From Trueperella pyogenes (GTDB taxonomy: Bacteria > Actinomycetota > Actinomycetes > Actinomycetales > Actinomycetaceae): a stretch of 64,000 nucleotides of DNA. The stretch is taken from NCBI RefSeq assembly GCF_001070855.1, contig NZ_JVLH01000009.1, positions 248,001 through 312,000 of the forward strand. The letters run 5' to 3'. How positions within the stretch are numbered: position 1 is the first letter of the stretch; the number at the start of each line of letters is the position of its first letter. The notes below the pieces were generated by a model. The model did no database searches. It was not told where the DNA came from and saw only the letters and a program-made list of their open reading frames with translations. Positions 2,841 to 30,326 of the stretch are shown here, piece after piece. A program made the translations under genes and the position numbers.

Positions 2841-3105
2841 GTATGTCAACCTCCGCCTCTATTCTCTCGCATGACTGTCGATTCAAACAAATTGACCAGT
2901 GTGAATCTCACGTTCAATACTGTTGTAATTCCTCCGAACTAACTTCGAGTACTCGCGCGGCTTGTAACTGCTTTTGACCTTCGCCTCCCTTATTTCAACA
3001 GGGCTTCCATGCACCTGCTGTACCTATAACTACTCACGCTGATCTTCAGATCTTTATGCAAAGCATGATTCAGGGAAGCTATCACTCATGCTGATATCAA
3101 ACACT

Positions 3106-3137
3106 GTGGGCGATGTTTCACGTGAAACATCGCCCAC
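3106..3137. promoter_or_regulatory. parS site 1 inside a 32-bp perfect palindrome
   Basis: The 16-bp parS TGTTTCACGTGAAACA spans 3114-3129 and is extended on both sides so that 3106-3137 is a perfect inverted repeat with no loop. It lies just past the 3' end of parB, about 6 kb from oriC. ParB binds parS and spreads from it to form the segregation complex. The rest of the 2841-3207 gap shows no gene. Confidence 0.93.
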
Positions 3138-27229: not shown

Positions 27230-29674
27230 TCAGTGCGCGCGGCGCAACCTCATGGAGTTGAGGACAACACATACCGAAGACATGGCCATCGCAGCCGAAG
27301 CGAGCATCGGGTTGAGAAGCCCGAAAACCGCGAGCGGAATCACGATGACGTTGTAGAAGAAGGCCCAGAATAGGTTCTCTTTGATGACCTTGAGGGTCGC
27401 ACGCGAAATACGAATCGCAGCGGCAGCCATCGTCGGATCCGAGCTCACCAGCGTCATATCCGCAACAGCGATCGCACTATCCGCACCCGAACCCATGGCA
27501 ATACCCAAGCCTTGAGTCGAGGCCTGTGCCAGAGCAGCCGCGTCATTAACGCCGTCACCCACCATGGCTACCTGGTGGCCTTCTTCTTGAAGGCGCATCA
27601 CCGCATCGCGCTTATCTGCGGGAAGAACTCCTGCAATAACCGAGTCAATCCCGACCTGCGAAGCGACAAAACGTGCTGCAGATTCGTGATCACCAGTGAG
27701 CAAGGTCGGAGTGATACCCAAGGCCTTAAGCTGGGCAATCGCATCCTTCGATGACTCCTTCACCGTGTCACGCACAACGAATGCACCCAGAAGCACGCCA
27801 TCAAGGTGCTCGGGAAGTTCGCGCGTTTGAGGTGTGAGTGTCGCTGTGGATGCTTGAACAGAGGCAAGTCGACGCGAACGTACCTGCGGCTCATATCCCG
27901 CTGCCTTCACGACCTCTTCAAGCTGAGCATCGCTGTAATCGTGCTTGAGGGTAATTCGAGCGCTCTCAGTTGCCAGGTTGACCTGCGCATGAACACCATC
28001 GAGCTTGCCCAACTTGCGCTCAACTCTGCGAACGCAGGAAGCACAGGTCATGCCGCCCACGGCCATATCGACGATGATCCCACCATCCTCGTCCTCTTGC
28101 GTGGGCTCCGAAGCCTGCGTCGGGTCCGTATCACCGGCGGAGGAAGTTTCCTGCCAGCCCTCAACGCGCGCGCTGGCCACAACGGTCGCTCCCGTGGCCT
28201 CGGCCTCGGAGATCGCGGAAAGCGCGGACTGAGGAAGGGAAATACCAAGCTCACCCAGCCAGCTCACGCGGCCGGCCAGAAGGAGTGCGCCGTCTTCGGC
28301 AAGCGCGGAAACCCCAAGTCCGGGGTGGTTGCGCAGCTCGCGAACCGGGTGCGAGGGAAGCTCGCGCTCGTGGGCAGCTGCAGTGAGCGCGCGGGCAATC
28401 GGGTGCTCCGAGGCCGACTCCAGCGAGGCGGTCACGCTGAGTGCATCCTCGCCGGCCTGGGCATCGGGAGAATTCGCGCTTCCATCGGGAAGGATCACGG
28501 ACTCCAAAGACATGGCACCCTTCGTTAAGGTGCCGGTCTTATCAAGGAGGATCGTGTCGATGCTGCGCGTGCGCTCAAGGACCTCAGCGGAAGAAATGAG
28601 GATACCCATCTGCGCGGCCTTGCCCGAACCCACAAGGAGTGCGGTTGGCGTAGCCAGACCAAGAGCACAGGGGCAGGCAACAACCAGTACAGCGACGGCT
28701 GCGGTGATTGCGCTTTGAACGCCAGCTCCGGCAATGAGCCATCCCGTCAAAGTCAGTAGGGAAAGCACAATGATCGTTGGAACGAAGACCGAAGAAATAC
28801 GGTCCGCAAGACGTTGGACCGGGGCCTTTGTTGCCTGGGCCTCGGTAATCATCTGGCCGATGTGAGCCAGCTGAGTTTCGGATCCAACGGCGGTTGCGCG
28901 GACGATCAATGCTCCCGAGGTGTTGAGGGTCCCTCCGGTGACCGTGCTACCAGGGGATACTTCGCGGGGAAGAGATTCACCCGTCATGAGCGAGGTATCC
29001 AAAGCGCTGGAGCCCTCTTCAACGATGCCATCGGTTGCAACCTTGTCTCCGGGGCGAACCTGGAAGAGGTCTCCGACGCGAAGTTCAGCTGCGGGGATGG
29101 TGCGGAACTGGCGATCCGCGCCACTTCCTTCAACGAGGATTGCGTCCTTCGCACCGAGCTCAAGAAGAGAACGCAAGGCATCACCGGAGTGGTAGCGCGT
29201 CCGTGCCTCCATCAGTCGGCCGGCTAGAAGGAAAGTAACGATTGCGCAGGCACCCTCGAAGTAGATTTCTGCGTGCGTTGCGTGGCTGCTCGCGGGGATG
29301 AGCGACATATGCATCCGCATGCCGATCATGCCTGCGCCGCCAAAGAGCAGGGCATACCACGACCACAGGCTCGAGGCGATGACGCCGAGGGAGACCAGGG
29401 TATCCATGGTCGAAGATCCATGGCGTCCCGCCTGGAGGGCAGCGCGATGGAAGGGGGCGGCACCCCAGATCACGACGGGTAGCGAGGCGAAAGCGGCGAC
29501 CCACTGCCAGCCGGGGAACTGAAGTGGAGGAACCATGGACAGGCCCAGAACGATGATGGTGAAAGGGAGGGTCACAAGGAAGCGGTTGCGTAGATCCGCA
29601 GCGCGGCGCAGCAGGCCGTCTCCTAAATGTTCGCTCTCAGTATCAGTTGATGTGCGGTGAGTTTTGGTAGTCAT
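27230..29674 (-). CDS. copA: Copper-exporting P1B-type ATPase with an internal HMA domain
   Basis: 814 aa. Core motifs: actuator TGES (231-234), metal-site CPC (334-336), phosphorylation DKTGT (378-382), N-domain HP (424-425), TGDH (660-663), GDGVND (706-711), and copper-type 'FFYNV' and 'MAMSSV' in the last membrane helices. It exports Cu(I) from the cytoplasm using ATP. Unusually, there is no N-terminal metal-binding domain. A complete HMA domain (534-596, 'GGMTCASCVRRVERKLG', Cys544 and Cys547) is inserted between N-domain strands 'ATVVASARVEGW' and 'GVLLGAFVVRDTVK', flanked by Asp/Glu/Thr-rich linkers. Last gene of csoR-copZ-copA. Confidence 0.93.
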   Translation of the reverse strand: MTTKTHRTSTDTESEHLGDGLLRRAADLRNRFLVTLPFTIIVLGLSMVPPLQFPGWQWVAAFASLPVVIWGAAPFHRAALQAGRHGSSTMDTLVSLGVIASSLWSWYALLFGGAGMIGMRMHMSLIPASSHATHAEIYFEGACAIVTFLLAGRLMEARTRYHSGDALRSLLELGAKDAILVEGSGADRQFRTIPAAELRVGDLFQVRPGDKVATDGIVEEGSSALDTSLMTGESLPREVSPGSTVTGGTLNTSGALIVRATAVGSETQLAHIGQMITEAQATKAPVQRLADRISSVFVPTIIVLSLLTLTGWLIAGAGVQSAITAAVAVLVVACPCALGLATPTALLVGSGKAAQMGILISSAEVLERTRSIDTILLDKTGTLTKGAMSLESVILPDGSANSPDAQAGEDALSVTASLESASEHPIARALTAAAHERELPSHPVRELRNHPGLGVSALAEDGALLLAGRVSWLGELGISLPQSALSAISEAEATGATVVASARVEGWQETSSAGDTDPTQASEPTQEDEDGGIIVDMAVGGMTCASCVRRVERKLGKLDGVHAQVNLATESARITLKHDYSDAQLEEVVKAAGYEPQVRSRRLASVQASTATLTPQTRELPEHLDGVLLGAFVVRDTVKESSKDAIAQLKALGITPTLLTGDHESAARFVASQVGIDSVIAGVLPADKRDAVMRLQEEGHQVAMVGDGVNDAAALAQASTQGLGIAMGSGADSAIAVADMTLVSSDPTMAAAAIRISRATLKVIKENLFWAFFYNVIVIPLAVFGLLNPMLASAAMAMSSVCVVLNSMRLRRAH

Positions 29675-29745: not shown

Positions 29746-29991
29746 TCAGAAATCGCGAGCGATTCCGACCAGTTCGAAGCCGGCCTCGGAAACAGCGTCA
29801 CGCAGAGCGTTGTCATCGAGTTCGGTGTTGGTGACAACGGTGGCCTTGGAGGTTGCGCCGGAGTTGAGGATGACCTCGACGTTCAGGACGCCGGGGACCT
29901 CGCTCAGTTCTTCGGTGACAGATGCGACGCAGTGTCCGCAGGTCATTCCGTTGATTGAGAGTTCGACGGTACGATCAATTTCCTGTGCCAT
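29746..29991 (-). CDS. copZ: Copper chaperone, HMA domain (CopZ-like)
   Basis: 81 aa. Single ferredoxin-like HMA domain with 'INGMTCGHCVASVTEELSEV', the Cu(I)-binding Cys pair. It shuttles copper to CopA and possibly to CsoR. The ATG is favoured because GAAAGG lies upstream; the longer frame is not needed. 50 nt after csoR and 71 nt before copA. Confidence 0.92.
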   Translation of the reverse strand: MAQEIDRTVELSINGMTCGHCVASVTEELSEVPGVLNVEVILNSGATSKATVVTNTELDDNALRDAVSEAGFELVGIARDF

Positions 29992-30041
29992 GATGGCGCC
30001 TTTCTTTGGTGGTGGAAAAGTGGAGAGACGTATGCGCACGC

Positions 30042-30326
30042 TTAGGACTTCACCAGTCGCGCGATTGCCTTTGTAGCTTCTTGGATCTTTTCGCGTCCTT
30101 CTTCTTCGCTGTGTTGAGCGGCGTGAAGAACGCAGTGATTCATGTGGTCTTCAAGGAGTCCCAATGCGACGGAGTCCAGTGCGGACTGCACTGCAGAAAT
30201 TTGAGTGAGGACATCAATGCAATAGGTGTCCTCTGCAACCATGCGTTGCAGCCCCCTTAGCTGGCCTTCAATTCTGCGAAGGCGCTTGAGGTACTGCTCG
30301 GTTTCTTCGGTATATCCGTGAGTCAT
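30042..30326 (-). CDS. csoR: Copper-sensing repressor CsoR
   Basis: 94 aa four-helix repressor. The Cu(I) ligands are at the classic positions Cys36 ('EDTYCIDVL'), His61 and Cys65 ('DHMNHCVLHAA'); the helix 'KRLRRIEGQLRGLQRMV' is the basic DNA-contact region. Copper binding releases DNA. GGGAGG 8 nt before the ATG. Heads the csoR-copZ-copA operon under its own palindromic operator. Confidence 0.95.
   Translation of the reverse strand: MTHGYTEETEQYLKRLRRIEGQLRGLQRMVAEDTYCIDVLTQISAVQSALDSVALGLLEDHMNHCVLHAAQHSEEEGREKIQEATKAIARLVKS

Follow-up and report, generated by a model that had tools for sequence, protein, structure and literature searches.

The window, the 64,000-nucleotide stretch of DNA analyzed here from a genome of 1.92 Mb, carries a copA gene downstream of copZ and a copper repressor gene of the csoR/ricR type, all on the minus strand. 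The features of the locus are as follows:

27230..29674, minus: copA, copper-exporting P1B-1 ATPase of 814 aa with an internal HMA and no N-terminal HMA
28667..28675, minus: CPC transmembrane copper site, residues 334–336
28529..28543, minus: DKTGT phosphorylation motif, residues 378–382
28154..28195, minus: strand segment preceding the insert, TGATVVASARVEGW, residues 494–507 (set by alignment anchors; strand by homology)
28079..28153, minus: N-side linker, residues 508–532, Glu/Asp/Thr-rich and poorly conserved
27887..28075, minus: internal HMA of CopA, residues 534–596 (PF00403 at 538–595)
28034..28054, minus: GMTCASC metal-binding motif of the internal HMA, residues 541–547 (C544, C547)
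27806..27877, minus: C-side linker, residues 600–623, poorly conserved
27767..27805, minus: final strand segment of the N-domain, which returns to the P domain, LDGVLLGAFVVRD, residues 624–636 (by alignment with LpCopA)
29746..29991, minus: copZ, separate copper chaperone with a single HMA (from ATG; a longer GTG reading starts at 30039)
30042..30326, minus: csoR/ricR-type copper repressor (PF02583, 9.7e-32)

The copZ product matched the Pfam HMA model PF00403 at 1.3e-14 (scanned as 29746–29994). The best NCBIfam match of the repressor was RicR, at 133.2 bits, which is under the cut-off of 175. CopA itself scored 482.2 bits against the NCBIfam copper ATPase model TIGR01511, compared with a cut-off of 397, placing it by profile in the P1B-1 class, and CPC, TGE, DKTGT, SEHP and GDGxND are all present in the usual order. 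Judged from its sequence, it is probably a working copper exporter. A metal-binding domain at a terminus is typical of the P1B-1 class, but not essential; the sole HMA of this CopA is internal. The closest named relative that we found was Actinomyces marseillensis, with a CopA identity of 95%.

Pfam placed PF00122 at residues 186–355 and PF00403 at 538–595 (E 5.7e-12; 46.3 bits against a gathering score of 24.8), the latter falling among two matched PF00702 stretches (best piece, 612–718). A score above gathering and a CxxC pair together identify the insert as an HMA domain. An earlier sequence-only reading had described a complete HMA with CxxC at residues 534–596, lying inside the nucleotide-binding domain of a CopA with no N-terminal HMA, between a strand ending near residue 507 and one starting near 625. 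All of this was borne out: the residues correspond exactly to 27887–28075 on the minus strand, cysteines occupy positions 544 and 547, the flanking segments are 494–507 and 624–636, and Pfam detected no N-terminal HMA in the 814-aa protein. When CopA was aligned with LpCopA (3rfu), the first piece ended at CopA residue 471 and the second restarted at 624, with the 624–636 segment aligned from LpCopA residue 541 on; the HMA is thus extra sequence relative to LpCopA. The same reading had called the linkers Asp/Glu/Thr-rich on both sides, which held for the acidic N-side linker but not for the C-side linker of the window CopA. Over 57 relatives, the linkers are rich in Ala, Ser, Pro, Thr and Gly, with 14.6% Asp plus Glu.

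The insertion site was defined in an alignment of the window CopA with 116 other proteins. Between two fixed anchors, 48 of 58 proteins with an N-terminal HMA have 26 residues, forming two strands joined by a short turn (e.g., DGATAVVVAWEGRARGVLVLRDEVKA), whereas the same segment is 132–220 residues long in 58 internal-HMA proteins, with the HMA at the same turn in every one. This difference in length shows that the HMA replaces the turn of the last β-hairpin in the N-domain, the second strand of which leads back to the P domain. Several relatives with an N-terminal HMA have low-complexity inserts in the same turn, of 7 (L143, L144), 19 (L191), 33 (L154), 35 (L155) and 57 (L192) residues, which marks the turn as tolerant of insertions. 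Published N-domain structures are described, in the accessible text of PMC5089723, as a six-stranded sheet with loops of varying length.

Of 213 genomes of the family (Actinomycetaceae), 207 had a CopA-like match (E ≤ 1e-60), and at least 61, from 9 of 36 genera, had the internal-HMA CopA. This count includes 55 genomes with a single unbroken match to an HMA-plus-P profile (model positions 2–3 to 132–133 of 133) and six more identified by direct reading (G159, G149, G169, G176, G081 and G084), but not G150, in which the HMA sits in a second, frame-shifted piece. The genera are g1, g10, g17, g20, g21, g24 (2 of 4 genomes), g25, g30 (5 of 6) and g35; Actinomyces marseillensis, Schaalia georgiae and, with a broken frame, Pauljensenia hongkongensis are named carriers. 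Proteins were read from 26 of the other 27 genera (g6 excepted), and 25 of these genera have an N-terminal HMA; in the proteins read from g19, no HMA of any kind was found. The recurrence of the layout across so many genomes excludes chance or assembly error as its source, the latter being an outcome that the sequence-only reading had named as fatal to its claim; the spread over nine genera, and an origin at least twice (see below), go beyond what it had proposed.

Among 178 distinct proteins scanned, 58 had an internal HMA, and a second HMA was found in none of these 58. Since the classifier demanded CPC, DKTGT and GDG[VIT]ND within one frame, the presence of those three motifs in 58/58 is by selection. 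It missed L224 (added later, including to the fourth core tree) and the frame-broken L138/L003. L224 (G127, genus g21) is an internal-HMA CopA with CAC replacing the CPC copper motif. In L003/L138 (Pauljensenia hongkongensis, G150), copA is split over two overlapping frames, the second of which encodes the HMA; the break may be a sequencing error, as the genome is listed as 70% complete.

Outside the family, no further case stood among the matches listed. In a sample of the order (396 genomes), the unbroken matches listed were all within the family, and in overlapping samples of the class (394) and phylum (396), in which the window's genome was the only family member among those listed, the sole full-length match listed was the window's own. 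As these searches used one model and the best rows, distant internal HMAs or very long linkers would escape them at class and phylum level. Two long partial matches, G354 and G780, turned out to have their HMA at the N-terminus. A scan of named genomes with peptide patterns kept 80 loci, and none of the 75 proteins read from L003–L080 had an internal HMA. Among the plasmid matches listed, at least 12 of 4062 matching records covered ≥80% of the HMA-plus-P query; an internal HMA was present in none of seven records read (six of these and the two-piece match H21). On the Methylobacterium nodulans plasmid pMNOD02 (L283), a stretch coding for an HMA occupies its own frame directly downstream of a P-type ATPase gene and adjoins IS6-family transposases.

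Conservation differed sharply along the protein. Over 54 rows, leaving out the window and three near-copies, the median identity to the window CopA was 65% for the HMA, in line with 61–75% for those transmembrane, A and P parts that were measured. The N-domain, at 35%, was the least conserved of the folded parts, and the two linkers had 8 and 22%. Linker lengths (minimum/median/maximum) in 57 proteins were 20/33/81 aa on the N-side and 25/38/87 aa on the C-side. Against three close relatives, the HMA had a dN/dS of 0.02–0.04, a value that rests on one or two amino-acid substitutions in each pair, compared with 0.02–0.06 for the catalytic parts; a fourth, more distant pair was saturated. CxxC is kept in 58/58 internal HMAs, and the proteins that carry them keep TGD in 58/58, TGE in 57/58, SxHP in 55/58 and GxG in 56/58. 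These comparisons indicate that the HMA is under strong purifying selection while the linkers are free to drift. The low conservation of the N-domain could reflect co-adaptation with the HMA, a point against the tethered-sensor reading proposed below.

With copZ directly upstream and both genes encoding HMA domains, one conceivable origin of the insert is a fusion of CopZ into CopA. However, the internal HMA of the window was at best 45% identical to 90 CopZ windows versus 66% to N-terminal HMAs, and in the HMA tree, which has 65 columns, long branches and an unsettled bootstrap, the 12 CopZ rows (11 drawn at random) formed their own group at 99/100, with the internal HMAs among the N-terminal HMAs of CopA. 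A CopZ fusion is therefore rejected as extremely improbable, as the sequence-only reading had supposed, and identity and tree together indicate that the internal HMA descends from CopA-type N-terminal HMAs.

Genus g24 contains both layouts, with an internal HMA in L135 and L136 and an N-terminal HMA in L192 and L199. In core trees built without the HMA, L192 is sister to the internal pair (100 in the first tree, 100/100 in the second), and the N-type L199 lies outside all three (99/91 in the third). The internal HMAs of g24 are 75–78% identical to the N-terminal HMA of L192, with which the HMA tree groups them (99/93), and at best 61–62% to an internal HMA of the main group, which disfavors transfer from the main group into g24. 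A tree constrained to a single clade of all internal-HMA rows (35 of 63) was 173 log units worse and was rejected by the AU test (p 4.5e-8), whereas the 33 rows without g24, a grouping chosen after the tree had been seen, could be joined at a cost of 3.8 log units (p 0.448; not rejected). Taken together, the AU test, the placement of g24 and the HMA identities indicate that the HMA has relocated at least twice within the Actinomycetaceae, between the same two places. As L199 lies outside, N-terminal to internal is the simpler direction in g24, an argument from parsimony.

The main internal-HMA group did not form one clade in the free core trees. The first, second, third and fourth of these require 3, 4, 6 and 4 layout changes, respectively (two forced by starred branches in each), and they differ in where they place g24, Bowdeniella and L120. 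The first tree was built without L199, L200, L203, L204 and the duplicate L081, and the second without near-duplicates and far outgroups. The HMA tree requires nine layout changes, six of them forced by starred branches; the extra changes may be noise or further moves.

Some individual genes deserve mention. L199 (G132, g24) has 112 residues from DKTGT to GDGxND, where about 200 are usual; most of its N-domain is gone, in frame, and it is possibly a decayed gene. In L192 (G133, g24), copA carries a DNA repeat in its N-terminal linker and again in the hairpin loop of the N-domain (locus positions 1351–1500 and 2932–3114). We considered intragenic recombination through this shared repeat as the mover of the HMA, but the repeat is merely dispersed in G133, with 29 matches at up to 2 mismatches, compared with none in a reversed-pattern control of the same genome and none in its three congeners. 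Its presence at both sites shows that both accept insertions, not that it moved the HMA. Of the six g30 genomes, only G187 has a canonical N-terminal-HMA CopA (L190); this protein clusters with CopAs from other genera and well away from its own genus, suggesting replacement by gene transfer.

We propose, at a probability of roughly 0.6, that the internal-HMA proteins are working CopAs in which the regulatory HMA was relocated, at least twice, from the N-terminus to the hairpin turn of the N-domain and carries out its usual job from a new tether. A conserved HMA and metal site on drifting tethers fit a mobile domain held by a flexible double tether. At low copper, the cycle would be slowed by the apo HMA, docked on the cytosolic domains with the A/N interface as a possible site; copper binding, or hand-over from CopZ, would release the HMA. 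The relocation implies that what the job requires is a flexible tether close to the A/N/P headpiece, not covalent attachment to the first transmembrane helix. The conserved HMA lacks that attachment and cannot act through it, which favors sensing or autoinhibition. More tentatively, the HMA may have hopped, independently and at least twice, to the same turn and could then regulate through the headpiece from its new anchor on the N-domain, without an N-terminal tether, possibly through metal-gated movement of the N-domain or nucleotide access.

Next to sensing and autoinhibition we place a copper relay, in which CopZ passes Cu(I) to the tethered HMA, which hands it on to the membrane entry site, the tether having merely moved. 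A CopZ match lies near copA at 57 of 58 internal-HMA loci, compared with 40 of 46 N-terminal-HMA loci, flanks permitting (a CsoR match at 33 of 58 and 20 of 46, respectively); the long linkers could reach the membrane face; and the invariant CxxC fits copper delivery as well as sensing. Delivery by metal-binding domains (MBDs) is cited for yeast Ccc2 and human ATP7B in the accessible text of PMC11970713. According to the same text, however, one CopA receives copper at the membrane domain directly from its own organism's CopZ, isolated MBDs could not deliver in vitro, and delivery by the LpCopA MBD is argued against, making a relay rather unlikely here. The sequence-only reading had proposed that metal binding directly gates ATP binding, with copper on the internal HMA altering the hairpin or covering the ATP cleft and so controlling ATP affinity. 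The position of the insert, between the last two strands of the N-domain, and the strong conservation of the HMA speak for such gating. Poorly conserved linkers of 20–81 and 25–87 residues, however, would transmit little strain, and the ATP-site motif SxHP and a GxG are nearly always kept. A rigid gate is thus unlikely, and a tethered copper sensor or autoinhibitor is favored over it; docking of the internal HMA that blocks the cycle is possible. Direct gating, possible though unsupported, ranks below the relay. Finally, the HMA might have landed by neutral drift in a permissive loop, its position being without consequence and the domain being kept only through its fusion. The inserts that the turn takes in several relatives, including the dispersed repeat in G133, would suit this, but the low dN/dS of the HMA, its invariant CxxC, the lack of any further HMA in the same CopA and the repeated relocation, at least twice, to one site make it improbable.

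The tethered sensor that we favor has a partial precedent in LpCopA, for which the accessible text of PMC11970713 proposes that at low copper turnover is blocked by an N-terminal tail between the A- and N-domains, with the CxxC core as the sensor; the AxxA and SxxS forms were about 70% less active. Because this inhibition resides in an N-terminal tail, and because the LpCopA MBD is called non-ferredoxin-like (PMC10973460, accessible text), transfer of the model to internal-HMA CopAs is uncertain. In the proposals that the same text makes for eukaryotic pumps, the first MBD extends the A domain structurally, and the membrane platform can serve as a docking site for another. It calls the role of these domains enigmatic, the reports on binding, transport and autoinhibition being in conflict.

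Natural domain permutations such as the internal-HMA CopAs bear on the role of the HMA in copper pumps, and g24, with both layouts in one genus, offers close natural pairs for comparing HMA positions. Models derived from N-terminal domains comprise delivery, sensing, autoinhibition and a structural link of the A domain to the first helix. We found no report of the internal layout in titles and abstract openings, a search that most subscription journals fell outside, so that, although an earlier mention is possible, this is apparently a CopA variant not described before.

The CopA of the window shares with canonical CopAs (LpCopA, 3rfu; AfCopA, 3j09) the make-up of a Cu(I) pump with CPC, TGE, DKTGT, HP and GDGxND and one CxxC HMA, and its csoR–copZ–copA gene order is that of canonical bacterial CopA. 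Unlike in these proteins, where the HMA is N-terminal, the HMA lies in the hairpin turn of the N-domain and there is none at the N-terminus. The metal-binding domains of human ATP7B and rice HMA4 are likewise HMA units of a copper pump, but they are N-terminal, whereas that of the window CopA is internal. N-terminal placement is called typical in the accessible text of PMC10973460, and the numbering proposed there, with minus for N-terminal and plus for C-terminal MBDs, has no slot for an internal one. Closest in having an HMA in a non-standard place are CopAs with C-terminal HMAs, mostly from Bacillota (e.g., L029, L035 and L038); an N-terminal HMA followed by one or two C-terminal HMAs recurred at several loci among L029–L076. 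In those proteins the HMA is appended in addition to the N-terminal one, whereas in the window CopA it is the sole HMA and interrupts a catalytic domain.
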